Shown piece by piece: positions 2,704-40,847 of a stretch of 64,000 bases of DNA. A program made the position numbers and the translations under genes. Source of the stretch: a virus. Each line of letters starts with the position of its first letter. The first letter of the stretch is position 1. The stretch lies in IMG/VR virus record IMGVR_UViG_3300035701_009377, positions 1-64,000 of that record; one strand, written 5' to 3'. The notes below the pieces were generated by a model. The model did not search any database, had not been told where the DNA came from, and was given only the letters and a program-made list of their open reading frames with translations.

Positions 2704-2741
2704 AAAAAAGCCTTACGCAACTCGTTGCTGCGTAAGGCTTT
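2704..2741 (-). terminator. Rho-independent terminator of tRNA-Lys
   Basis: On the minus strand a 13-bp perfect stem (2741-2729 with 2719-2707) closes a 9-base loop and runs into six U residues (2709-2704). It starts a few bases after the tRNA 3' end, the classical position for a tRNA terminator. Confidence 0.88.
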
Positions 2742-2747
2742 AACTTA

Positions 2748-2820
2748 TGCCCCCTGAAGGACTTGAACCTTCGACCACCTGATTAAGAGTCAGATGCTCT
2801 ACCAACTGAGCTAAGGGGGC
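2748..2820 (-). tRNA. tRNA-Lys (anticodon CUU)
   Basis: The cloverleaf is complete on the minus strand. The acceptor stem GCCCCCT pairs with AGGGGGC. The anticodon stem CTGA/TCAG closes the 7-base loop CTCTTAA, giving anticodon CUU. The T arm is GAAGG-TTCAAGT-CCTTC and the discriminator base is A at 2748. CCA is not encoded. The 3' end points left, away from the integrase. The gene may be the host tRNA next to the integration site or a phage-carried tRNA. Confidence 0.95.
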
Positions 2821-2895
2821 GACGGAAGCTAAGTGCTTGTCAGTATTAGTCTTAACTGGCCTCGCAACTCGTACCTCCGTAGTGGCAATCTCCGG

Positions 2896-2919
2896 GACGA
2901 CAGTAGGTGACGACAGTAG
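2896..2919. repeat. 11-bp direct repeat upstream of the integrase
   Basis: GACGACAGTAG occurs at 2896-2906 and again at 2909-2919, about 60-80 bases before the integrase start. The position suits operators of the integrase promoter or integrase arm-type sites. The function is inference. Confidence 0.4.
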
Positions 2920-2975
2920 TTTACCCAAATTACCAGTCGTCGGGCCAATAGTCTATCCTTTAATGGAGAGGTGCC

Positions 2976-4250
2976 ATGCGTCATTCTACCAAAGCCCCAC
3001 GCCCTCACAAGCCCTACCCGGACTTCCCTCTTTTCCCCCACCGCAATGGACAATGGGCCAAGGTGATTCGGGGGGAAATGCACTACTTCGGCTCGTGGAA
3101 AACCGGTACTTGGCAAGACGCCCTTGCCGAGTTTCAGCGGCAGGCCCCGGCGTTGTACAATGGACAACAACCGGACCCCAAGCCGCAAGGCATGACCATC
3201 AAGGAAATGGTCAACCACTTCATGCATCACAGCAGCCTGAAGGTCAAGGCCGGGGAGTTGAAGCAGCGGACGTGGAACGAATATCAGACCTACGGCAACC
3301 GCATCATCGACGTGCTCGGGGCGGACTTCCCCTTGGAAGCCGTGGGACCACGAGCCGGGGAAAAGCTGTTTGAGGCCATGACGAAATGCCACCAATCGCC
3401 CCACTCGCTGGAAGGTGACAAGGCGAAGATCATGGTCTTCTTCAACTACGCCAACGACCAAGACTTCACCGAGCGGCCCATGAAACTGGGGTCACTGTTC
3501 CGGCGGGCCAGCCGCCGCGTGAAGCGCAAGCGCCGGCAAGAGACGCGCGGCCACAAGTTCTTCGAGGCCCAGGAAATTCGCCAGTTGCTAGCGGAGGCCC
3601 CGCCGCGACTGAAAGCGATGATCCTCTTGGCGGTCAATTGCGGTTTCGGCAACGAAGATTGCGCCACGCTTCGCTGTTCCGTCGTCGATCTGGAGAAGGG
3701 TTGGATCGACTTTAGCCGGGCGAAGACCGGCAAAGAACGCCGCTGCCCCCTTTGGCCCGAGACCGTGGCCGCGTTGCGGGAAGTCTATGCCCACCGCAAG
3801 GTGCCAAGCGACTCAGATCACTCCGACTTGGTGTTCGTGACGAAGTACGCGAACGCCTACAACGCGAAATCCAAAGACGGATCGGACAACCCGATCTCGC
3901 AGGTCTTTACGAAGCTGACGAAGAAGTTGCACCTGCATCGTAAAGGGCGTGGCTTCTATGCGCTGCGCCACGTCACCTACACCATCGGTCGGCGGCGGAG
4001 TGCCCTGGGAGCACAAATCATCATGGGCCACCTGGATGCTGAGCGGGTGGGCGAGTTCAGCAACCAGATTTCCGACGAGTGGTATGATGAAGCGGGCAAC
4101 ACCGCGATGGATCATCTGCTGCTGGCGGTGTCGAACTTCATTCACGATTGGCTGTTCCCGAGCAATACTCCGGCACCGGCGGTAGTGGTCGGCGACGCGG
4201 CGAACGCCGTCGCGGCGTCGGCGATTGTAGAGACGCCTGTATCGACGTGA
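2976..4250 (+). CDS. int: Tyrosine recombinase (phage integrase)
   Basis: Site-specific recombinase of 424 residues expected to integrate and excise the phage. An N-terminal SAM-like DNA-binding domain covers roughly residues 60-170 and the catalytic domain about 190-390. The box II region reads FYALRHVTYTIG, with Arg and His as in R-H, and IIMGHLD supplies the later Gly-His. A tyrosine near residue 370 (EWYDE) is the likely nucleophile. The usual box I arginine is not obvious: the stretch reads NCGFGNEDCATL. I associate this variant, with RCPLWPET downstream, with planctomycete integrases. A ribosome binding site (GGAGAGG) sits 5 bases before ATG 2976. The gene lies next to a tRNA-Lys and converges with the HTH gene, overlapping its 3' end by 113 bases. 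Confidence 0.93.
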   Translation: MRHSTKAPRPHKPYPDFPLFPHRNGQWAKVIRGEMHYFGSWKTGTWQDALAEFQRQAPALYNGQQPDPKPQGMTIKEMVNHFMHHSSLKVKAGELKQRTWNEYQTYGNRIIDVLGADFPLEAVGPRAGEKLFEAMTKCHQSPHSLEGDKAKIMVFFNYANDQDFTERPMKLGSLFRRASRRVKRKRRQETRGHKFFEAQEIRQLLAEAPPRLKAMILLAVNCGFGNEDCATLRCSVVDLEKGWIDFSRAKTGKERRCPLWPETVAALREVYAHRKVPSDSDHSDLVFVTKYANAYNAKSKDGSDNPISQVFTKLTKKLHLHRKGRGFYALRHVTYTIGRRRSALGAQIIMGHLDAERVGEFSNQISDEWYDEAGNTAMDHLLLAVSNFIHDWLFPSNTPAPAVVVGDAANAVAASAIVETPVST

Positions 4251-4578
4251 AGGCTTCCAAGTCATGCCGATAAATGCGGTAACGAGGGCGACCTTCGTCG
4301 GTAACGTTCAACGCCTTCAACTTGCCCTTGCGTATCCAGCCGAGAACTTTCGACCGCCTGACCCGTAGCGCCTGTGCCACTTCGGGGACGGTCAACGGTT
4401 GATCGTGTGAATGGGCTGCTTTCTCCGTCATGGCCAGCTTCTCGGCGGTGACCGGGGCCAGCATCATGGTGTGAACCTCCAGCATCACCGAGGCCAGCGT
4501 CAAGGTGGCCGCGGCAACCTTGTCACCCCCGGTCTGGTTCAGGTACTCGCCGTAAAGGGCGTTGACGGCAGCGTTCAC
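4138..4578 (-). CDS. HTH (MerR/AlpA-like, excisionase-type) DNA-binding protein
   Basis: About 146 residues. The C-terminal half contains LTVPEVAQALRVRRSKVLGW followed by IRKGKLKALN and a wing RPRYRIYRHDLEAF, the pattern of the HTH_17/excisionase DNA-binding domain. The start chosen is GTG 4578, which overlaps the stop of the upstream small gene as GTGA. A longer form from ATG 4638 would cut deep into that gene. The gene converges with the integrase and overlaps its end, a frequent arrangement for a directionality factor. It could be an excisionase or a regulator of the operon. The basic proline-rich tail is probably unstructured. Confidence 0.72.
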   Translation of the reverse strand: MNAAVNALYGEYLNQTGGDKVAAATLTLASVMLEVHTMMLAPVTAEKLAMTEKAAHSHDQPLTVPEVAQALRVRRSKVLGWIRKGKLKALNVTDEGRPRYRIYRHDLEAFTSIQASLQSPTPRRRSPRRRPLPPVPEYCSGTANRE

Positions 4579-4766
4579 GTTGCTCGATCTTCTTGATAAG
4601 GATGGTTTCTGCCCGGTTCCGGCGGCATCCGCATCCACCGCTTCTGCAACTCTTCAACCTGCCGGCGGCGCGGGTCGAACTCGGGGATGTTCGCCAACAA
4701 TTCCTGGATTGCCGGATTGACCGGCGGCTGGCTGCGGCGGATTTCGTCTTCGTTAGGCATCGGCAC
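4575..4766 (-). CDS. Small hypothetical protein
   Basis: 63 residues, acidic N-terminal half and basic C-terminal half, with NPAIQELLANIPEFDPRRRQ likely helical. No family recognised. It starts 6 bases after the stop of the 321-residue gene upstream and overlaps the HTH gene downstream by GTGA, so it is translated as part of the leftward operon. Confidence 0.6.
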   Translation of the reverse strand: MPMPNEDEIRRSQPPVNPAIQELLANIPEFDPRRRQVEELQKRWMRMPPEPGRNHPYQEDRAT

Positions 4767-11531: not shown

Positions 11532-11761
11532 TCGGTCATCTCCTTTGGCCAGGGCCAGTCGATGATCTCAAGGTCTTCCTCGGTTTCCCATTCCATGAAG
11601 GCCACGCGGTCCCAAATGCAGGGGACTTTCTTCGGCCGCTGCTGCGAAGGGTCGGCGGCCTCCAAGGCCGCGAGTCGTTTGCGGATTTCCAATTCATCCG
11701 CTCTTACTGAGTCGAAGTCGCTGCACATCTCAAAGATCAGGTCGTCTACGTTGCGATTCAT
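11528..11761 (-). CDS. Small acidic hypothetical protein
   Basis: 77 residues from ATG 11761, overlapping the methyltransferase stop as TAATG, and overlapping the PDZ gene start by ATGA. Reads MNRNVDDLIFEMCSDFDSVR with an acidic, tryptophan-rich end (EIIDWPWPKEM). No family recognised. Confidence 0.58.
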   Translation of the reverse strand: MNRNVDDLIFEMCSDFDSVRADELEIRKRLAALEAADPSQQRPKKVPCIWDRVAFMEWETEEDLEIIDWPWPKEMTE

Positions 11762-13035
11762 TACTCCGTCTCCCAGATCGCGCGGTGGATATATTGGCTT
11801 CGTACCATGCCGTGTTCCTCCGCGATCTTGGCGCAATAGCCGGCGTCGAGTTCGATCAGCGTGCAAGGGTTGCCAGTGCGTTTACACACCCTGAGCGTCG
11901 TGCCCGTGCCGCCGAAGGGGTCCAAGACAGATTCGCCCTCCGGCGTAGTGAGCCTGACGCAACGCTCGATCAGGCCCTCGTTGAGTTGCGTCGGATGCCA
12001 GGGCCGTCGCTGCTTGGAGTTGCCAGTCACGCGAGGGAAGTTGAAGACATCGCTCATTGCCAACTCACCCGTGACATGCCGCCATGTCTTCCGATCCTTG
12101 ATGGCCCGGATGTTGGCTTCCGTGACACCGTATTGTCGAGCAAGGCAGGTCGGGGTATCGGGTGACTGGTAAATGCGAACGACATCTTCGGTGGTCAACT
12201 TTGCCAATCCATTGTTCTCACCGTTTGGATGGTTCCCTCTCCGCTTGCTTTCTTTATCGCGGTTGTTGTCGTCATCAGTTCCGATGAATAGATGGTTCGG
12301 GTTGCAGCAACCAGGGTTATCGCAGGCGTGCAACACGAGTTGACCGATGGGGTCAACTCCGTGCGTCAGCCGCCACATGAGGCGCGTGGCAACGTATAGT
12401 TGCTCACCGACGCGGAAACGGCCGTAACCTGCGCGCTTACCGGCTGTCCATTCCCAACAATCCGTTTCACTGCGGCGGTCGATCTTTGCCAAAAAGCGTT
12501 CAACGTCTTGCGTGGTCCAATTCGGCAGCGGCAACGTGTCACGCTCGCCATACTCGAAATGAGCCACGTCGCCGGGCACCCGGCCGCGAGGATCGGCTCG
12601 CTTATCGCCGTTCTCTTGCCGCCAACTTGGGATGCGAATGGCGTCGGGGCACAACGGGGCTTCGGACCAGCGCAGCCGGAGCAGCGGCCGATGGTTGTTT
12701 CCCAGGTCATGGTGGCAATGCTGCCCGAATGTGAAGGTCTGGACGCACGGCTTGGCTTCCAGTCCGCTGGTGCGCCGGACCATTTCGGTCACGATCCGGC
12801 CGACCTCGAAGGTCCAGCGGGCGTTGTAGCTGAACCAGACGGTTTTGGCTTTGTGGATGAATAGATGAAGCCAGGTTTCGAGCAGATCGACGTACTGATG
12901 GTCAGGCAACTTGTCCTTGTAGGTCTGGTAGCCCAGGCCGATGTTATCGGGCGGGTCCGAAAAAATCGTGCAGAACACCTGTGGGGTTCCGTTGAGATAG
13001 TCGAGACAATTGGCGTTAATCAGGATGTGCTTCAT
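11761..13035 (-). CDS. DNA methyltransferase with embedded HNH/NUMOD homing nuclease domain
   Basis: 424 residues. Residues 1-157 carry the methyltransferase target motif FSDPPDNIG; residues 328-424 carry HPTQLNEGLIERC and the SAM-binding motif LDPFGGTGTT. Between them, residues about 158-327 (12055-12564) are an HNH nuclease: TDCWEWTAG, GYGRF, VLHACDNPGCCNPNHLFIGT and DDDNNRDKES, followed by a small helix-turn-helix (LTTEDVVRIYQ to IRAIKDRKTW) like the NUMOD DNA-binding modules of homing endonucleases. The reading frame stays open throughout. The methyltransferase halves join logically at GRVPGDV / FNFPRVTG. No intein splice residues are evident. The start ATG 13035 overlaps the upstream stop by ATGA. 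Confidence 0.88.
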   Translation of the reverse strand: MKHILINANCLDYLNGTPQVFCTIFSDPPDNIGLGYQTYKDKLPDHQYVDLLETWLHLFIHKAKTVWFSYNARWTFEVGRIVTEMVRRTSGLEAKPCVQTFTFGQHCHHDLGNNHRPLLRLRWSEAPLCPDAIRIPSWRQENGDKRADPRGRVPGDVAHFEYGERDTLPLPNWTTQDVERFLAKIDRRSETDCWEWTAGKRAGYGRFRVGEQLYVATRLMWRLTHGVDPIGQLVLHACDNPGCCNPNHLFIGTDDDNNRDKESKRRGNHPNGENNGLAKLTTEDVVRIYQSPDTPTCLARQYGVTEANIRAIKDRKTWRHVTGELAMSDVFNFPRVTGNSKQRRPWHPTQLNEGLIERCVRLTTPEGESVLDPFGGTGTTLRVCKRTGNPCTLIELDAGYCAKIAEEHGMVRSQYIHRAIWETE

Positions 13036-13304
13036 TGCTGCCTCGGGTTGCTGCCGCTGTGGCCGCGCTTGGCGACCACGACGTAGGTGCCGATCCAGCC
13101 GCCGAGGATGTACGCGGCCACAGCCAAGAAGCACTTCTCGACGATCAGCACTGTGGAGACGATGGTGCAAAGGTAGAGGACGGCACTCAGGTTCGCGGCG
13201 GCCATTGGTCGCCGTTGCATCACGGCGTTGACACAGCACGTCCACACCCAGTCCATTGCGAACCCGCAGGCGAAGGCACCCAGGAGCACTGTTACACTTG
13301 TCAT
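13032..13304 (-). CDS. Membrane protein, about three helices
   Basis: 90 residues with hydrophobic stretches VTVLLGAFACGFAMDWVW, LSAVLYLCTIVSTVLIV and CFLAVAAYILGGWIGTYVVV and a short basic tail. It resembles small phage membrane proteins of unknown role. Coupled to neighbours by ATGA overlaps at both ends. Confidence 0.65.
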   Translation of the reverse strand: MTSVTVLLGAFACGFAMDWVWTCCVNAVMQRRPMAAANLSAVLYLCTIVSTVLIVEKCFLAVAAYILGGWIGTYVVVAKRGHSGSNPRQQ

Positions 13305-15814: not shown

Positions 15815-16458
15815 GGCAGCAGCCCCCGGTAGGTGGACGCGCCGAGGCGGGTGCAGCCCAAGTCCAAATACAAGGCGGCGTCGGCGTAGGTCTTAATTCC
15901 TCCGCTGGCTTTCACCCCTGCCTTGCCATCGACGGCTTCCAAAATGGCCTTGACCGCTTCGAGCGTGGCCCCGCCGGGGCCGAAGCCGGTGGATGTCTTC
16001 ACGAAGTCCACGCCGCTTTCGACGCAGAGGCGGCACGCCTCGTGAATCTGCTCCGGCGTGTAGTGGGCCGTCTCTAAGATGGCTTTCACGAGCACGCCGC
16101 GAGGATGGGCAGCCTTGACGATGTTGGCGATGTCCCAGAAGGCGTCATGCCGGCCGCCATCGAGAAACCGGCCGTAGTTGACCACTACATCGAGTTCCTT
16201 CGCCCCGCAGTCCATCGCCACCACGGCCTCGGCGTACTTGGCCTCGGGCAGCGTGTTTCCGTGGGGAAAAGCAATCACCGCGCAGATGTTGCGGTACAGA
16301 CCGCTCGCCATCGGCACCCAGGCTGGCGCAACGCAAACCGCCTTGACCTTGCCGGCCACCGCCAAGGCGCAGGCGGCGCGCACGTCGGCGGCCGTGGCAG
16401 TCGGCTTGAGGACAGCCAAGTCCAGGGCGGCGGCAATCTGTTCCTTCGTGTAGCTCAT
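15811..16458 (-). CDS. deoC: Deoxyribose-phosphate aldolase
   Basis: 215 residues, the usual DeoC length. The enzyme cleaves 2-deoxyribose 5-phosphate to glyceraldehyde 3-phosphate and acetaldehyde through a Schiff base. FVKTSTGFGPGGAT contains the catalytic lysine (V-K-T-S-T-G), VKASGGIKTYADA the second conserved lysine stretch, and ELDVVVNYGRFLDG the TIM-barrel strand with the conserved Asp. Nothing is missing. It is coupled by ATGA overlap to the deoxyribosyltransferase-like gene, fitting breakdown of host deoxynucleosides. deoC is uncommon in phages. Confidence 0.93.
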   Translation of the reverse strand: MSYTKEQIAAALDLAVLKPTATAADVRAACALAVAGKVKAVCVAPAWVPMASGLYRNICAVIAFPHGNTLPEAKYAEAVVAMDCGAKELDVVVNYGRFLDGGRHDAFWDIANIVKAAHPRGVLVKAILETAHYTPEQIHEACRLCVESGVDFVKTSTGFGPGGATLEAVKAILEAVDGKAGVKASGGIKTYADAALYLDLGCTRLGASTYRGLLP

Positions 16459-17840
16459 AAGGTTCTCGATTCCAAGCGGGCGGCCGTGATGTCACAGTTG
16501 TGGGCATCCAGCTCGACGCCGATGCAGGGACGACCCAGTTTCTTTGCGGCGATGAGGGTTGTCCCACTGCCGGCGAAGGGGTCCAGAATGACGCCGCCGG
16601 TCGGCGTGGAGAGCAGCGTCAGCAGATAGCCCATCAAGTCGAGCGGCTTGACCGTGGGATGGTCGTTGCCCAGGCCGCGCTCCTTCTTTGTCGACTTGCC
16701 GCAGTAGAAGAACCGAGATGCCCCGCCGGAGTCGCCGAAGGTGCCGGTGGCCGAGGCCGTGTCCGGGAAACCTCCGTGATAGCCGCCCTCTCCCTTGCTG
16801 CGGTTGCGCTGCTGGCCGGCCTTCATCTTGCCGCTGGTGAGCGTGCCAGTCTGGGCGTCCAGCCTTCCCACCGGACAGTCGGGATGGCATTCGTAGACGG
16901 GCACGACCTCATTGCCGTAGACGCGAGCATTTGGCTCGCCATCGCCAGAGTCCGCGCCCACGTTGCCGAACCCGCCGGGCCGGCGGCCGGCGCAGTTGCC
17001 CCGCGGATCGCCGCGCAGGACCGTCGTACCGACTTGCCGGCACTCGGGATGGTGCTCCAAGAGCAGGTTCGCCGGCCAGCGGCCGAGGGGAAATACGCGT
17101 TCTGCGACGCTGCGGGTCTCTTCGTACTCGGTGGCGTGCCAGGGGCCGGCTTTTCCCTTCCCTGACGAAAGCCACTTCTCGCCGTACTCGGCGGCATAGT
17201 CGCATGGTATCCGGCAGGCGTCGATGTTCATGCCGGCGACGCCGTGGCGTTGAGCGTTCTGTGCAAAGGTGCCATCGAGCGGCTTCATCGCCAGGACGAT
17301 CGGTTCCCAGGCGGGCTTCAGGGAGGAGCCCCAGCCGTTCCAGCGATTGGCAACTTCGGTGGCCGGAATGGTGTCGAGGATTTCGACATTGCCGGCCTTG
17401 CCGTGTCGCTGCCGGTTCTGGTAGCTGTCGCCGCGGATGTCCGGCTGCGTGCGTCTGCCAACCACCTCCCGCTCTGCCCCTGCCGCCTTGTCGAGGGCCT
17501 TGGAGATGTCCAGCGATTTCGGGAATCCCTGGCCATAGAGCCACATCAAGCAGTCACGGATTTCCCAGCCGGCATCCTCGATGGCATCGACGAGCCGGTG
17601 CCAGGTCCGCGTGCCGCCAAAGGCCAGCAGCATTGCGCCGGGCTTGCACACGCCGGCAATCGCCTTCCAGTAAGGCGGGCCGGGAACATCGAAATCCCAG
17701 TCCTTTTCCATGAAGCCCAGGCCGTAGGGCGGATCGGTGACAACGAAGTCCACCGTGTTCGGCTGCATCGCTTGGGGCAGCACCTCCCGCAGGTCGCCGT
17801 GGTAAAGCGTGATGTCGTTTTTCTCGTAGTAAGGCTGCAT
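16455..17840 (-). CDS. DNA methyltransferase (DPPY type)
   Basis: 461 residues. The target motif VTDPPYGLGF lies near residue 35 and the SAM motif VILDPFAGSGTTLIAAK near residue 425, the beta-class order of N6-adenine or N4-cytosine methyltransferases. A long central region with GDSGGASRFFYCGKSTKKE and HPTVKPLDLMGYLLTLLST is shared with the paralogue at 34392-35579. ATG 17840 is preceded by a 120-base intergenic gap, so a promoter may lie there. It modifies DNA, probably to protect phage DNA from host restriction. Confidence 0.9.
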   Translation of the reverse strand: MQPYYEKNDITLYHGDLREVLPQAMQPNTVDFVVTDPPYGLGFMEKDWDFDVPGPPYWKAIAGVCKPGAMLLAFGGTRTWHRLVDAIEDAGWEIRDCLMWLYGQGFPKSLDISKALDKAAGAEREVVGRRTQPDIRGDSYQNRQRHGKAGNVEILDTIPATEVANRWNGWGSSLKPAWEPIVLAMKPLDGTFAQNAQRHGVAGMNIDACRIPCDYAAEYGEKWLSSGKGKAGPWHATEYEETRSVAERVFPLGRWPANLLLEHHPECRQVGTTVLRGDPRGNCAGRRPGGFGNVGADSGDGEPNARVYGNEVVPVYECHPDCPVGRLDAQTGTLTSGKMKAGQQRNRSKGEGGYHGGFPDTASATGTFGDSGGASRFFYCGKSTKKERGLGNDHPTVKPLDLMGYLLTLLSTPTGGVILDPFAGSGTTLIAAKKLGRPCIGVELDAHNCDITAARLESRTL

Positions 17841-19410: not shown

Positions 19411-20175
19411 TCAGAAGTTCGTGAATAGGACTTCGGTTTTCGTTTTGCCCCGGTAGTTGTGCCGTCCGGTTCCGGCGCGGCTGGCGGTCACGCGGTCGAT
19501 GCGGTTCCAGCCGCGGTAGAACTCTGCGGCGTCGGGGTACTCGGAGACAACCACCTTGGCTTTGGCCGAGTGCAGCAGTTCCACCATCGCCGGATAGTCG
19601 ATGCGGTAGCGGTACTCGTTTTCGTGTCCCAGATACGGTGGGTCCATGTACAAAAGGCAGGTGGGGTCGTGGTACACCCGCTCGATGGCAACCAAGGCAT
19701 CCTCGTGAAGCAACTGGACCCCTCGCAGCCGGTTAGCGGCAGGCAGTATCCGGCGGAACCAGTCGGCCCAAACCTCGGGCTTCGGCTTGTGCGGGGCCGG
19801 GCACTTGTCGAGCGACCAGGTGGACGAGTTGCCGTTCCCGCAATAGAACTGTGCTCCCTGGGCCATTAGCAGCACAGCCTGGTCGATGTCACCCACGGGC
19901 TGGTCCCGCCAGTTGGCGGCCGTGTATGGCGTTGCCCAAAGCAGAGCGGCCAGTTGCTCTGGCTGCGACTTGATCGCGCGCCACATACTCGCAATCGCCT
20001 CATCCAGATCGTTGATGATCTCGACGAATGAACGGGGCTTGGCGAGCAATACGGCGGCAGACCCAGCAGCCGGCTCCATGTAGACCCGGTGTGGCGGGAA
20101 GTGCGAGACGATCCATTTGGCGATGGACGCCTTGCCGCCGTACTGACGATAGATGATCTTGGGCATCGCGGTCAC
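19411..20175 (-). CDS. D12-class DNA adenine methyltransferase
   Basis: 254 residues. YGGKASIAKWIVSHFPPH is the N-terminal SAM-binding loop of the D12 (Dam/M.EcoRV-like) family, YMEPAAGSAAVLLAKP the F-x-G-x-G-equivalent strand and LLYMDPPYLG the catalytic DPPY. It transfers a methyl group to adenine N6. The start is GTG 20175, overlapping the ligase stop by GTGA with GGAGG upstream; ATG 20166 is an alternative. It is one of five intact methyltransferases in the window. Confidence 0.9.
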   Translation of the reverse strand: MTAMPKIIYRQYGGKASIAKWIVSHFPPHRVYMEPAAGSAAVLLAKPRSFVEIINDLDEAIASMWRAIKSQPEQLAALLWATPYTAANWRDQPVGDIDQAVLLMAQGAQFYCGNGNSSTWSLDKCPAPHKPKPEVWADWFRRILPAANRLRGVQLLHEDALVAIERVYHDPTCLLYMDPPYLGHENEYRYRIDYPAMVELLHSAKAKVVVSEYPDAAEFYRGWNRIDRVTASRAGTGRHNYRGKTKTEVLFTNF

Positions 20176-21530: not shown

Positions 21531-22079
21531 GCTGTGCAATCTTTCTTTGAGGTAGACCAGCGGCTTTCGTCCCCAGGCCGAGTTCCAAGGCCGCGGCACC
21601 AGTATGCCCACCCCGCCGTGGGCCTCGAATTGGCGGATGTTCTCTTCGTTGTCGTCGATTAGCACCGCGCCCGGCTGGGCCAGAAAGTGTTTGCGCGGCG
21701 TGAGGACGTACTGGCGGTGCATCCAGGCCGGGAAGTGGCGATGAATCCACTCCAATTTGCCGGCCACGCAGTCGGGGTCTTTTGTCGGGGCAGTGGCGAT
21801 GCAGACGTTTTCCCGGCCCACGAGACGTGCGGCCTCCTCCAACAGCCAGGGGAAGACCTCGGACTCGGGCACCGTGGCCCACACCTCGCGGCCGATGAAG
21901 TTCCAGAAATCCGGCACTGTGTATTGCCGGCCGCCGAGCCAATTGGTGGCAGCCACGATGTCGTAGCCGACAGGCGGATAATCAGCGTAGTCCGTGGCGC
22001 TCACCTTGCAGCCAAGTTGGTGCAGGGCATACATGGTGAACGTGTTGCACACATCATCCTGATCCAGGAAGATTCTCAT
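21504..22079 (-). CDS. 5'(3')-deoxyribonucleotidase (NT5C-type, HAD fold)
   Basis: 191 residues from ATG 22079. MRIFLDQDDVCNTFTM has the HAD nucleophile motif D-x-D-x-V, IATAPTKDPDCVAGK supplies the Thr/Ser and Lys motifs, and AVLIDDNEENIRQF the metal-binding acidic pair. The family (NT5C) removes the 5' or 3' phosphate from deoxynucleotides. In a phage it would act on nucleotide pools. It overlaps the sigma factor gene by 4 bases. Confidence 0.85.
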   Translation of the reverse strand: MRIFLDQDDVCNTFTMYALHQLGCKVSATDYADYPPVGYDIVAATNWLGGRQYTVPDFWNFIGREVWATVPESEVFPWLLEEAARLVGRENVCIATAPTKDPDCVAGKLEWIHRHFPAWMHRQYVLTPRKHFLAQPGAVLIDDNEENIRQFEAHGGVGILVPRPWNSAWGRKPLVYLKERLHSTVPTQQRR

Positions 22080-22753
22080 GCCTGTTCTTGGCGGCAGCGC
22101 AGGCCACGCTTTTGGCAGTAATCTGCTTCGATACGGTTCACGATGTTTCCGATCTGCGACTTCTTGTATGGCACCTGAGCGGTGATTTGCCGGTATGTGC
22201 AGCCTGATTCGGATAGCCGCAGGATTTTCCGTTCGGTGTCGTCCTTGCAACAAGAGCGGAGCAGGTCGCGGGCCTGAACCTTTTGTGCCTGCGGAGCTAT
22301 CGGCAGGCGGCAGTGGTCAGGCATTGTGTTCACTACGGAGGGCACCTCGATCTCTTCTCCCTTTGCCTTGGCTCGTTGACGGTCCCCGTGTGACACTTGA
22401 ATTGGCGATTCATCTTCCAGCAGATGTCCGACAGCGGCATTGATGGAGACGCCGATATAACCGTTTGCGTTGGTGCGAACCTTGCCTTCGGCGATCTTAT
22501 TGACAGCCTGGACCAGCGCAAGAAAGCCAGCGCTGGTCAGATCGTCGCGGAGATACGCTAGATGGGGAAACTGGGCCAGAAAACTGTCGACTTTGGCAAC
22601 GACTAGCGGCATGTTGCCCTCAATCATCTGCCGGCGGGCATCAGCGTCACCGGCGACGACAAGCGGATAGAGCCGCTCGTTTTCCTCGACGGAGGACGGT
22701 TCGCCGAGGCGGGCCATGTCGGCAGTCAAATCGCTGTTGTATTGGCTACTCAC
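22076..22753 (-). CDS. RNA polymerase sigma factor-like protein
   Basis: 225 residues from GTG 22753, which has GGAG 7 bases upstream; the frame upstream is inside another gene. Residues 22-110 resemble sigma region 2: ERLYPLVVAGDADARRQMIE, GNMPLVVAKV, LRDDLTSAGFLALVQAV and NGYIGVSINAAVGHLL. Residues about 170-215 resemble region 4: DDTERKILRLSESGCTYRQI then YKKSQIGNIVNRIE. It would redirect host RNA polymerase to phage promoters. It differs from housekeeping sigma factors by length and lacks region 1.1. A repressor-type HTH alone is a less likely alternative. Confidence 0.78.
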   Translation of the reverse strand: MSSQYNSDLTADMARLGEPSSVEENERLYPLVVAGDADARRQMIEGNMPLVVAKVDSFLAQFPHLAYLRDDLTSAGFLALVQAVNKIAEGKVRTNANGYIGVSINAAVGHLLEDESPIQVSHGDRQRAKAKGEEIEVPSVVNTMPDHCRLPIAPQAQKVQARDLLRSCCKDDTERKILRLSESGCTYRQITAQVPYKKSQIGNIVNRIEADYCQKRGLRCRQEQA

Positions 22754-34391: not shown

Positions 34392-35579
34392 CTACAAGGA
34401 TTCCAGTCGGCTCGTCGCGATCTCGCAGTAGTGCTCGTCGAGTTCAACGCCGATGCAACGACGACCGATTTGTCGGGCGGCCAGGAGCGTCGTGCCGCTG
34501 CCGGCGAACGGGTCGAGGATCACGCCGCCCTCTGGGGTCGAAAGGAGGGTCAGTAGATATTCCATCAGCGCGAGAGGTTTGACCGTGGCGTGATCGTTGC
34601 CCGGCCCGCGCTCCTTCTTCGTGGCCTTCGAGCAATAGAAGAATCGGCTTGCCCCGCCAGAGTCGCCGTAGCTCACCTGCACGTCGCCCGCTTTACCGAT
34701 GCGCCCGTGATAGCCATCACCGGGCTTGCTGCGGACACAGTTCGTGCCGCTGGTGAGAGTGCCGGTCTGGGCGTCGAGAAGGCGGGCTGCTTCCTCGTCC
34801 AAGAGCAGGTTCGCCGGCCAACGACCACACTCTGAACCGCCCACGGGCGAACGATTAGTGCTGGCCCAGCCCGCGTCAGTCAGGCTATCGCCGCGCGTGC
34901 GAACGGTGCTCTCGGTGCCGATGCGGGAGGCGTCGATGTTCATGCCGGCCACGCCCCACGTCAGGGCATTGTGGGCAATCGTGCCGTCCAACGGCTTCAT
35001 CGCGAGGACGAGCGGCTCGAAGGCCGGCTTCAGGGCCATCGCCCAGCCGGTCCATTTCGTCGCTTCGGGAGTAGCCGGGGCTGTGATGGCGCACTCCGCC
35101 TCGGGATTGTGCAGGTCGCCGTAGACCTCGTTCGTGCGGCCATTGTTCGCCAAGGAGTAGCCGGGCCGCCCCAGCTTCGTGCCGATGACTTCGCGCTTGA
35201 TCCCCTTGGCCTTGTCGATGAGCTTGCCGATGTCGCCGCACTTGGGCATCCCCTGCCCATAGAGCCACATCAGGCAGTCCCGGATTTCCCAGCCGGCCTC
35301 TTCGATGGCGCAGGTCAGGCGGTGGTAGGTCCGCGTGCCACCGAAGGCCAGCAGCAGCGCACCCGGCTTGCACACGCGGGCAATGGCCTGCCAATAGAGC
35401 GGGCCGGGGACGCCGTGGTCCCAGCCCTTGCCCATGAAGGAAAGGCCGTAGGGCGGGTCTGTGAGCGCGAAGTCAACCGACGCCTCGGGCAGCGCCGGCA
35501 GCACGTCGAGCAAGTCGCCGTGGTAGATCGTGATGTCGTTCTTGTCGTAGTACGGTTGCAAAGGATCACCAAGCCACAA
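34392..35579 (-). CDS. DNA methyltransferase (DPPY type), paralogue
   Basis: About 395 residues if TTG 35579 is used; TTG 35561 (QPYYDKNDITIYHGDLLDVL) aligns with the start of the paralogue at 17840 and may be the true start. It has ALTDPPYGLSFMGKG as target motif and ILDPFAGSGTTLLAAR as SAM motif, and shares YGDSGGASRFFYCSKATKKE and a VKPLALMEYLLTLLST segment with the 16455-17840 gene. The two arose by duplication or separate capture. One could provide a second specificity. Confidence 0.88.
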   Translation of the reverse strand: MWLGDPLQPYYDKNDITIYHGDLLDVLPALPEASVDFALTDPPYGLSFMGKGWDHGVPGPLYWQAIARVCKPGALLLAFGGTRTYHRLTCAIEEAGWEIRDCLMWLYGQGMPKCGDIGKLIDKAKGIKREVIGTKLGRPGYSLANNGRTNEVYGDLHNPEAECAITAPATPEATKWTGWAMALKPAFEPLVLAMKPLDGTIAHNALTWGVAGMNIDASRIGTESTVRTRGDSLTDAGWASTNRSPVGGSECGRWPANLLLDEEAARLLDAQTGTLTSGTNCVRSKPGDGYHGRIGKAGDVQVSYGDSGGASRFFYCSKATKKERGPGNDHATVKPLALMEYLLTLLSTPEGGVILDPFAGSGTTLLAARQIGRRCIGVELDEHYCEIATSRLESL

Positions 35580-37112: not shown

Positions 37113-38012
37113 TCACGATTCGTCGTCGCTACATAGGCCCTCCTCGGTCTGCATTTTCAGCCTCATTTGGATTCTGCGGTGCTGTTCTTCGACGCTCGTG
37201 GCGTCCAGGTGGAGCGCCCATTGCAAAGCGAGCCGCCAGCCATCCAGCGGCGATTGGCAGTTCCCTGCCGCGAGCAAGAGCGGCGCGGCGCACGGCTGCT
37301 GGTATTCAGAGACAAGTTCCTTGACGTTGCGCAGGTGCGGCACTGGCGCGGCGTCTGGATCATAGAACACGTCCATCTTTCCGTGCCGCACCGCCTCCTG
37401 GTACTTCTTGAGAAAAGCGCCAACCGTCACGCGGAACTCCGAGACAGGGGCGGCTTTCGCCAGAGGGACAAACTGGGGCTGGTGGACTCGCGGGATTCGC
37501 GCCAGCCTGTAGGCCGATTCCAGCGGAATCTCCCCCCGGTCCACGCACTTCTGGATGTCAGCGCGAAGCGCCAACAGGTGCAGTTTGTCCCGCACCCAGC
37601 CGGGACTCTTGTGGACCATCGTCGCCACCCGCGCGATGGTTGCGCCGGGCTTGCTCGACAATATCTTCTTCAACTGCCGGGCGAACTCCGTGGGCGTCGT
37701 GTCCAGCCGCACCGCATTTGCCTGAATCTGGATCGCCAGCACGTCTTCGTCCGTCAAGTTGTGCTTGACAGTGCATGGCACCACGGGCAGGCACAATTCG
37801 CGGGCGGCGGTGAAACGCCGAAGGCCGTCCACTACTTCATACTTGCCGGAGTGTCGCGGCGACGGCCGCACGCAGATGGAATTCAGGAATCCCTTGTCGG
37901 CCAGCGAGTCCCGCAGTTCCAGGTACTCGACCGACTCCTTGTTCACCAGGCGCAGGACCAGCCACGGTTCCACAAGCTGGTCGGTCGGGATGTCTCGGTT
38001 TTCGTCGGGCAC
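37113..38012 (-). CDS. ParB-like protein 2
   Basis: 299 residues from GTG 38012 with AAAGGA upstream. The ParB N-terminal domain shows ELRDSLADKGFLNSICVRPS and YEVVDGLRRFTAAREL (GxRR-type loop), followed by NAVRLDTTPTEFARQLKKIL and a helix-turn-helix (ATIARVATMVHKSPGWVRDK). It is the first gene of the leftward operon and starts at the nested palindrome, so it may bind nearby sites for partition, replication or regulation. It is divergent from the primase. Confidence 0.85.
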   Translation of the reverse strand: MPDENRDIPTDQLVEPWLVLRLVNKESVEYLELRDSLADKGFLNSICVRPSPRHSGKYEVVDGLRRFTAARELCLPVVPCTVKHNLTDEDVLAIQIQANAVRLDTTPTEFARQLKKILSSKPGATIARVATMVHKSPGWVRDKLHLLALRADIQKCVDRGEIPLESAYRLARIPRVHQPQFVPLAKAAPVSEFRVTVGAFLKKYQEAVRHGKMDVFYDPDAAPVPHLRNVKELVSEYQQPCAAPLLLAAGNCQSPLDGWRLALQWALHLDATSVEEQHRRIQMRLKMQTEEGLCSDDES

Positions 38013-38036
38013 TGGCGTCCTTTCGCGTCAACTGGA

Positions 38037-38117
38037 CACCTACACATGAGGCCCAAACACGAAGAATTTCCAAAGAAACTTTGGAAAATCGGAGGTTTTG
38101 GGCCTCATGTGTAGGTG
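38037..38117. promoter_or_regulatory. Nested palindrome between divergent operons; candidate origin or operator
   Basis: A 21-bp perfect inverted repeat (38037-38057 and 38097-38117) encloses a second 9-bp inverted repeat, TTTCCAAAG-AAA-CTTTGGAAA (38067-38087). The central 39 bases are A+T-richer than the surroundings. It lies in the only divergent intergenic region, 25 bases from the ParB-like gene start and 73 bases from the primase-helicase start. Such structures act as replication origins, operators for divergent promoters, or partition sites. Which of these applies is inference. Confidence 0.7.
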
Positions 38118-38189
38118 ACACTGTTCGCGGCAATCGCACGAGCAAGAGCGCGTTGGATAGAGCGTTTATACGCACCTTGAGGACGAGCC

Positions 38190-40847
38190 TTGAAAGTCAC
38201 CGAAGCCTTCCGCAATTTCCTCCAAGCCCGAAAGACGGCGGCCAATGCCGATCTTGCGGACGCCTGGACGCCAGCAATGGAGACGCAGTTGAACGTGGCT
38301 CCAGGGAAAGGCGAGCCGGTCGCCGGGAAACGGTCAACCTGGTCGGACGGGATCAACAGTTGGTTCAACATCCGCATCCCCAAGAACGCCGCCACCGACC
38401 CCTCCTTTGACGATTACACGCTCACCTTCCCGCTCGAAGAGCACGCCGAGGGGATCGGCTGTACGGGTTGGGATTGGCAGAACCGCTCGTCGCGGTGGGT
38501 CGGCTTCGACTTCGATGCCATTACCGGCCATGCCAAGGGAGTCGGCATTTCGGACGAAGCCTTGCAGCAGGTCAAGGAAGCCGCCTGCGCGCTGCCATAC
38601 GTCGAAGTCCGCAAGAGCACCGGCGGGGGCGGCATCCACCTGTACGTGCGCTTCGATGGCATCCCCACGGCGAATCACACCGAGCACGCTGCCTTGGCCC
38701 GATGCGTGTTGGGCATGATGGCGAGTGAAACCGGCTTCGACTTCGCCAGTCAGATCGACGCCTGCGGTGGAGTGATGTGGATTTGGCACCGCAAGATGAC
38801 GGCCGCCAACCAGGGGCTTTCCATCATCAAGCCGGCGACCAAGGTGCTCACCGCTGCCGACCTGCCGGCTAACTGGCGGGACCACATCGAGGTCGTGACC
38901 CGACGCCGCACGAAGGTCCGCATCAACGAGATCGCGGAGGAGTACCTAGACCCCTTCGAGGCGTTGGCCTCGTCCCGGAGGATCGTCCCGTTGGACAAGA
39001 GCCACAAGGCCCAGATCGAGGCCCTGATGCGATCCAACTTCACTACGCTCTGGATCGCCGACCACCATCTGCTACAGACCCATACCTGCGCCCTGAAAGC
39101 CTTGATGGAAGGAGAAGAGGCCAAGGAACTCAAGCTGACGGGCCTTTTCAGGACAAACAGCGAGGGGCGCGACCCCGGCTCTCCCAACTGTTTCCTCTTT
39201 CCGCTCCCCAATGGCGCGTGGAAGGTCTACCGCTTTTCGCAAGGCGTGGGCGAGGCAGAGACCTGGACGCAGGATGGTCAGGGGTGGACTACCTGCTACT
39301 TCAACCGGGCACCCGATTTGGGAACCGTCTGCAAGGCGTTCGGCGGGGTCGAAGACCCGGACCAAGGCGGCTACGTCTTCGCGACCGCCGACAAGGCCGT
39401 CGAAGCCGCCCGCGTCCTGGGTCAGGAGATCGAGCTTTCCGACAAACGGATGCAGGCCCGCCGCGCGACGCTCAAGGCCCACAAGGACGGCCGCCTGGTG
39501 GCCCAGATCGAGAGTGCTAAAGACGACAGGCAATTGCCCAACTGGCTCGACAAAAAGGGCAAGTGGGTGCGCGTCTTCGACGTGAAGATCGACGCCGAGA
39601 AAAAGGACGATCTGGGCTCCACGGAATACGACAGCCTCGTCCGCGCCATCAAGACTACCGGCAAGCACTTCACCGGCTGGGCCGTCAGGGACAACGAGGA
39701 GTGGGTCTGGCAGCCGAGCGGCAACGTCAAGACCTATTTGCAGGACATGGGCCTTCCCAGGAACGAAGCGGAAGCGATCATGGGCGGAGCCGTCAAGCGG
39801 TCTTGGAAGCTCGTGAACATCCCCTTTCACCCGGAGTATCCCGGCGGGCGGCAATGGAACATGGACGCTGCGCAGTTCCGCTTCAAGCCGGTCGAGCTGG
39901 CCGAAGACGAAGCCCCGCTCCATCCGCACTGGGACTTGATCTTCAATCACTTTGGGACCGACTTGACCCCGGCCCTCCAAGAATTGGCCTGGGCACGAGA
40001 GGCCGGGATCAAGACGGGAGGCGACTACATGAAGATGTGGCTGGCCTGCTCCTTCCGCGACCCGTTCGAGCCAGCGCCCTACATCTTCGCCTACGGGCCG
40101 GAGGACTGCGGCAAGTCGATCATCCACGAAGCGATCAAGCTGCTTGTGACCAAGGGCGTCGTCGAAGCCGACGGCGCTCTGGGCAGCAATAACGACTTCA
40201 ACGGCGAGCTGGCCAACGCGGTTCTGTGCGTGGTCGAAGAAGTTGACCTCACCAAGGCCAAGGGCGCGCACGCCAAGATCAAGAAGTGGGTGACGAGCCT
40301 TGTCCTCTCCATCCGCCAGATGCGAACCGACCGCTATGAACAGCCCAACACCACGCACTGGATTCAGTGCGCCAACGACCCGAAAAATTGCCCCGTCTTT
40401 CCCGGCGACACGCGCATCACGGTCATCTACGTCAACGACCTGCCGCCCAAGGCGAAGATTCCCAAGAAGGAACTTCTGCTGAAACTCGAAGCGGAAGCGC
40501 CGCACTTCATGCGAACGCTCTTGGACCTGCAACTACCGACCGTCCAGGACCGCTTGCGGCTGCCGGTCGTCGCCACGGCCCGCAAGCTTCAAGCGGAAGA
40601 AAGCAACCGCACGCTTCTGGAACAGTTCATCGCGGAGTGCTGCATCGAGAGAATGGGCGAGCGCACCCTGTACAAAGACTTCTTCGACCGATTCGAGGCG
40701 TGGATGGACCCCGCCGAGCGGCACCACTGGTCGCGGATAGCGACCATCAGGGAGCTTCCCATCCGCTTCCCCGCCGTCAACGGCCACGCCAACAAGAAGT
40801 ACGTCAGCAACCTCGTGCTGCGACCGGAGACCGGCGAGCCGTGTTAA
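38190..40847 (+). CDS. Primase-helicase (prim-pol-like with SF3 helicase)
   Basis: 885 residues from TTG 38190, with GAGGA 6 bases upstream. The N-terminal part has VGFDFDAITGH (D-x-D, residues 105-114) and VRKSTGGGGIHLYVRF, resembling archaeo-eukaryotic primase-polymerase motifs. The C-terminal half has the SF3 helicase Walker A GPEDCGKSIIHE (about residue 635), Walker B VLCVVEEVDLTKAK, and the sensor region HWIQCANDPKNCPVF. Such proteins unwind DNA and make primers at the phage origin. It is the first gene of the rightward operon, next to the nested palindrome. Confidence 0.88.
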   Translation: MKVTEAFRNFLQARKTAANADLADAWTPAMETQLNVAPGKGEPVAGKRSTWSDGINSWFNIRIPKNAATDPSFDDYTLTFPLEEHAEGIGCTGWDWQNRSSRWVGFDFDAITGHAKGVGISDEALQQVKEAACALPYVEVRKSTGGGGIHLYVRFDGIPTANHTEHAALARCVLGMMASETGFDFASQIDACGGVMWIWHRKMTAANQGLSIIKPATKVLTAADLPANWRDHIEVVTRRRTKVRINEIAEEYLDPFEALASSRRIVPLDKSHKAQIEALMRSNFTTLWIADHHLLQTHTCALKALMEGEEAKELKLTGLFRTNSEGRDPGSPNCFLFPLPNGAWKVYRFSQGVGEAETWTQDGQGWTTCYFNRAPDLGTVCKAFGGVEDPDQGGYVFATADKAVEAARVLGQEIELSDKRMQARRATLKAHKDGRLVAQIESAKDDRQLPNWLDKKGKWVRVFDVKIDAEKKDDLGSTEYDSLVRAIKTTGKHFTGWAVRDNEEWVWQPSGNVKTYLQDMGLPRNEAEAIMGGAVKRSWKLVNIPFHPEYPGGRQWNMDAAQFRFKPVELAEDEAPLHPHWDLIFNHFGTDLTPALQELAWAREAGIKTGGDYMKMWLACSFRDPFEPAPYIFAYGPEDCGKSIIHEAIKLLVTKGVVEADGALGSNNDFNGELANAVLCVVEEVDLTKAKGAHAKIKKWVTSLVLSIRQMRTDRYEQPNTTHWIQCANDPKNCPVFPGDTRITVIYVNDLPPKAKIPKKELLLKLEAEAPHFMRTLLDLQLPTVQDRLRLPVVATARKLQAEESNRTLLEQFIAECCIERMGERTLYKDFFDRFEAWMDPAERHHWSRIATIRELPIRFPAVNGHANKKYVSNLVLRPETGEPC

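Follow-up and report, generated by a model that had tools for sequence, protein, structure and literature searches.

Promoters read by phage-encoded sigma factors are typically well conserved and of low copy number, and the region between divergent gene clusters is often occupied by divergent promoters, according to the part of PMC4331800 concerned with them. In the account given in PMC8948821, the mapped late promoters of the phage 7-11 sigma factor SaPh711_gp47 are bipartite, GTAAtg-(16)-aCTA. The phiEco32 gp36 sigma promoters consist of a single element, tAATGTAtA, and have no upstream box (PMC8948821, PMC4331800). Here we describe a comparable arrangement in the window, a stretch of viral DNA of 64,000 nucleotides belonging to a record of 75,407 bases. 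Judging by sequence comparison, a nested palindrome in the window probably consists of head-to-head, phage-specific promoters, with a third such promoter at the late operon, all of them putatively read by the phage's own sigma factor.

The palindrome (38037-38117, without strand) has perfect 21-bp arms, CACCTACACATGAGGCCCAAA at 38037-38057 and TTTGGGCCTCATGTGTAGGTG at 38097-38117 (21 of 21 bp paired), which enclose a loop of 39 nt, and inside this loop lies a 9-bp inverted repeat, TTTCCAAAG/CTTTGGAAA, at 38067-38075 and 38079-38087. With loops of up to about 100 nt considered, no other perfect inverted repeat of the window is as long (the runner-up has 13 bp). The predicted single-strand DNA fold of the palindrome has an energy of -33.2 kcal/mol, compared with -9.5 +/- 2.6 kcal/mol for 200 dinucleotide shuffles (z = -9.2). 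The nested perfect palindrome reported in a first-pass annotation of this DNA is thus borne out, and gene calling together with Pfam and PHROG matches confirmed its reported position between divergent ParB-like and primase-helicase units. On one side is a ParB-like gene (37113-38012, minus strand; Pfam ParB_N and HTH_ParB), the first gene of a leftward unit that includes a sigma factor gene, and on the other a primase-helicase-like gene (38190-40847, plus strand; DUF5906, PHROG DNA primase, weak Prim-Pol), the first gene of a rightward unit. An Rfam search of the window returned a single tRNA and nothing else.

A directional bipartite element, CTTTGGAAA-N9-TTTGGGCCTCATGTGTAG, with its two parts at a fixed spacing, is common to three exact copies in the record, where the next-best site has 10 mismatches. 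Promoter-type element A (38079-38116, plus strand), recognized by the exact bipartite match and by the column profile described below, is directed toward the primase gene. It is composed of the upstream box CTTTGGAAA (38079-38087), an unconserved spacer and a core (38097-38116), and its predicted transcription start is at about 38114-38115. Promoter-type element B (38038-38075, minus strand), recognized by the same two means, is directed toward the ParB-like gene, with its upstream box at 38067-38075, its core at 38038-38057 and a predicted transcription start at about 38040. The third copy is unpaired and is situated at 69756-69791 of the record (minus strand), about 32 kb from the palindrome; it precedes the gene that opens the late operon by 19 nt. 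Because all three copies share one bipartite element, the palindrome can be described as A and B placed head to head, and its inner 9-bp repeat as the upstream boxes of A and B, with 3 bp between them; the likeliest reading is that a single virus-specific element is present twice, its copies directed away from each other. According to gene calling, transcription units run leftward from 38012, rightward from 38190 and, for the late genes (terminase, portal and head genes), leftward from 69737, and every copy is directed into the gene that opens one of these three units. We also observed an identical 13-mer, AGCGTTTATACGC, at 38161-38173 of the window and at 69888-69900 of the record, each less than about 110 nt from a copy of the element, which may be a chance match in a record of 75 kb.

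The arrangement corresponds to a regulon of the phiEco32 or 7-11 kind in comprising a sigma-70-family protein and a few conserved directional repeats upstream of gene blocks. Likenesses to phage 7-11 are a phage-encoded sigma factor, a 16-nt spacer (here GGAAA-(16)-box), few copies upstream of gene blocks and a start, mapped there and predicted here, a few bases beyond the second box; unlike in the 7-11 promoters described, the boxes have other sequences and there are three copies rather than eight (PMC8948821, in its treatment of these promoters). As further differences from what is described for phage 7-11, the head-to-head pair here forms a perfect palindrome, the sigma gene lies within a unit headed by one of the copies, and the present phage, unlike that Salmonella phage, is related to prophages of mostly Planctomycetota. 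With phiEco32, as described in the same two sources, it has in common well-conserved repeats of low copy number at operon starts, here putatively read by a sigma factor (PMC8948821, PMC4331800), and it differs in having an upstream box (PMC8948821). What sets the present system apart from both is the palindrome formed by head-to-head copies, the layout of three sites in which one unit contains the sigma gene, and the rapid divergence of the promoters across a wide group of phages.

Relatives were gathered through the primase, giving 61 loci, 56 of them with upstream sequence, and a paired element is present upstream of the primase in 50 of the 56. Within 700 nt, 52 of the 56 loci had a longest inverted repeat that exceeded the best of 20 dinucleotide shuffles, the other four being L021 and L025 (imperfect pair), L041 and L064. 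No pair was found at L041 and L064, although the corresponding records G023 and G060 have a sigma match, and at L030, L035, L047 and L049 the best repeat was a short local hairpin or an AT-rich repeat, and these four loci were not scored as paired. Leaving out the six loci without a convincing pair, the 50 loci and the window yielded 37 distinct pairs. The arms diverge strongly between phages and match within each phage, so the palindrome did recur in related phages with compensating changes in its arms, a check proposed in the first-pass annotation, for a reason other than hairpin formation. The two halves are separated by 31 to 587 nt among the 37 distinct pairs, so that conservation does not extend to the geometry of a hairpin.

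A column profile of 33 pairs (4 of the 37 were dropped at sequence edges) has two conserved blocks, an upstream box (approximately GGAAA or TGAAA) and a core of 20 nt that has approximately T-A/G-TAGGT at its end, with a random-looking spacer between them; the layout is GGAAA, 16 nt and a second box, which is preceded by a T-rich stretch. Within pairs, identity is 0.85-0.94 in the upstream box, 0.24-0.52 in the spacer and 0.85-1.00 in the core, the core values being partly a product of construction and those of the upstream box mostly not, because the box lies mostly outside the arms used for finding the pairs. Between phages, many core columns have an identity of just 0.32-0.6. A search of viral_contigs with the exact 18-base core returned 0 matches, a result later attributed to the divergence of the core among phages. 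Downstream of the ParB-side element and before the ParB-like gene, a leader stretch around GACGCGGATGC is common to L007, L010, L006, L013 and others, and is possibly a translation or RNA signal.

The third copy, in the phage's own version, precedes the first late gene in all seven records in which this gene was found, among the subset of records in which it was looked for. Six of these belong to the 16 records read in stretches, namely the window record and, of its 15 relatives, the five in which the first late gene is present; four others (G012, G013, G014 and G020) contain the terminase and end before the first late gene, and the remaining six are without terminase. In the seventh record, G024 (locus L024), the halves of the pair are 312 nt apart and a third copy immediately precedes the counterpart of the late gene. 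The third copy best matched the version of its own phage in 7 of 7 records, with ties in 3, and the third copies end near the ribosome-binding region.

ECF sigma factors, which act at GGAAC-type promoters, are two-domain proteins with region 2 and region 4 and without region 3. The present element and its candidate reader resemble this group in the GGAA-rich upstream box, the 16-nt spacer, the T-rich stretch before the second box and a putative two-domain protein, and they differ from it in that core specificity varies phage by phage. The candidate is a phage-encoded sigma factor of 225 aa with a GTG start (22076-22753, minus strand), identified by PHROG match, profile and predicted structure, and we infer that this protein reads the elements. 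It and its counterparts in 15 relatives all match the PHROG sigma-factor family (16 of 16), and their profile matched solved sigma factors with a best E value of 6.6e-14. Region 2 is clear, region 4 has Pfam matches in 8 of the 16 members, and a short linker joins the regions in the model. The AlphaFold2 model (pLDDT 79.5, pTM 0.49) aligned to sigma-factor structures with Z scores of about 11-13, at about 3-4 A over region 2 and with a large rmsd over the whole chain.

The sigma factor was found in 15 of 15 relatives read in stretches and matched in 17 of 46 other records, several of these matches being weak (E ~1e-6). Because about 15 kb of the leftward unit precedes the sigma gene, short fragments would miss it; it was matched in 11 of 11 of these records that hold 18 kb or more upstream of the primase, versus 6 of 35 with less. 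In a held-out set of nine records selected by the sigma factor alone, five contained the primase and all five had the pair, three of these loci having been judged against a mononucleotide rather than a dinucleotide shuffle.

The sigma factor evolves fast across phages, and its gene is conserved in all long relatives. Both sigma factor and pair were available for 21 phages (L041 and L053 had fallen out earlier), and the omission of L057, which had no ParB match, left 20 for Mantel tests. Promoter distance correlated with sigma distance (r = 0.77, n = 20), and for the whole element the partial correlation with sigma distance was 0.56 given the primase and also survived control for ParB; primase (-0.16) and ParB (-0.13) distances added nothing given sigma. 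Across 13 of the 16 records, with genes present in at least 10 of them, the sigma factor ranked just 4th of 33 genes in its correlation with promoter distance, and shared ancestry can therefore explain much of the correlation. These comparisons are no more than suggestive of sigma-promoter co-evolution.

A master repressor acting on all three promoters would leave an identical sequence pattern, and this is a point against the sigma factor as reader. The element would then be an operator of such a repressor or of another regulator, possibly the ParB-like protein, over host-type promoters, and would co-evolve with that regulator. Consistent with this are the alike copies at all three units, the integrase adjoining a tRNA gene, which suggests a temperate phage, the helix-turn-helix of the ParB-like protein, whose gene is present in 15 of 15 relatives, and a small helix-turn-helix protein encoded at 4138-4638. 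We nevertheless consider it unlikely, because the element is asymmetric, is always directed into a gene and has a promoter-like two-box spacing, because third copies finish so close to the ribosome-binding region, and because ParB distance is uninformative once sigma distance is known. In addition, a simple sigma-70 scan of 37900-38300 with the Escherichia-type consensus found no promoter, and hence none overlapping the element. Of the three functions proposed in the first-pass annotation, the central operator came closest, in that the palindrome is a divergent control region, one better described as two asymmetric, directional promoter-type elements.

T7-type promoters resemble the ...TATAGG end of the element, and this core end (T[A/G]TAGGT) and the specificity of the element for each phage could also fit a promoter of a phage single-subunit RNA polymerase. 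Such a polymerase was not among the PHROG-scanned proteins, the record had no match to PF00940 (a weak argument, as the control also matched nowhere), and a conserved sigma factor is present instead, which makes this explanation very improbable. It is equally hard to maintain that the palindrome is the proposed replication origin, in the form of a hairpin or cruciform, or a primase loading site. The adjacent primase and the strong predicted hairpin speak for it, but hairpin and cruciform were rejected because the halves drift apart among relatives and a lone copy exists at the late operon, which L024 retains despite its widely separated halves. The sign of the GC skew flips near 38 kb, where the coding strand also switches, and the flip is not diagnostic. 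Least credible is the proposed parS-like centromere of the adjoining ParB-like protein, since the repeat unit is asymmetric and also occurs singly at the late operon, and no conserved symmetric short site was seen.

If the elements are promoters of the phage sigma factor, A would drive the rightward primase operon, B the leftward ParB-like/replication operon, including the sigma gene, and the third, single copy the late operon. The sigma factor together with host RNA polymerase would recognize the upstream box (GGAAA/TGAAA type) and then the second box 16 nt on, with transcription starting at the end of the element. Both copies of the pair would have to match one sigma factor, which would account for the perfect symmetry, and the rapid divergence of the sigma factor between phages would give each phage its own promoter word. 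Since the sigma factor would drive its own operon, initial transcription would need another promoter, of which the sigma-70 scan gave no sign in 37900-38300: some first promoter would yield a little sigma factor, the holoenzyme would then fire all three elements, and B would feed back on sigma production. Judging from distance alone, polymerase at A probably excludes polymerase at B.

Bacterial genome contigs carrying this primase, all of them metagenome-assembled, are mostly from Planctomycetota, including Pirellulales, and single contigs are labelled Anaerolinea, Bacteroidetes, Thioalkalivibrio, Patescibacteria and Rhodospirillales. Among the 12 of 13 such loci that were examined, L166, L167, L169 and L171 have a clear pair whose upstream boxes match, L168, L172, L174, L176 and L177 gave only local or self-palindromic repeats, and L170, L175 and L178 are ambiguous. 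In the window, a tRNA-Lys gene (2748-2820) and a 13-bp inverted repeat adjoin the integrase gene (2976-4250), and the region 2707-4250 suggests a prophage attachment site; a search for the tRNA-side repeat at the other end found no 14-mer in common. A serine recombinase/resolvase-like gene at 71142-71930 of the record is a second recombinase besides the integrase. Beyond the window, direct and inverted repeats are densely clustered at positions 72500-73530 of the record, and one of them (73155-73230) is another perfect inverted repeat of 21 bp. The window also holds many DNA methyltransferase genes (1053-2054, 11761-13245, 16455-17840, 19411-20175 and 34392-35579), and one ORF also matches HNH endonucleases.

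In searches limited to one open library of papers, we found no description of the present system, nor of a sigma factor or a promoter pair of this type in any phage of Planctomycetota. It is conceivable, as a tentative extension, that the lytic programme of a large phage group, mostly from Planctomycetota, is run from exactly three promoters by a single sigma factor of the phage's own making. Within this extension, A and B could not both hold polymerase, their upstream boxes being 3 bp apart, and would act as a switch by which either replication operon excludes the other, while the fast-changing promoter word would bar cross-activation of co-resident phages, a sigma-based counterpart of immunity groups. 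On the promoter reading, the palindrome becomes a readable promoter code, with dozens of natural sigma/promoter pairs of differing specificity and a candidate reader and its sites in each genome, which makes the joint change in specificity of sigma factors and promoters directly testable and could supply orthogonal promoter sets. It would also provide a first regulatory map for the phages of a poorly studied bacterial phylum.
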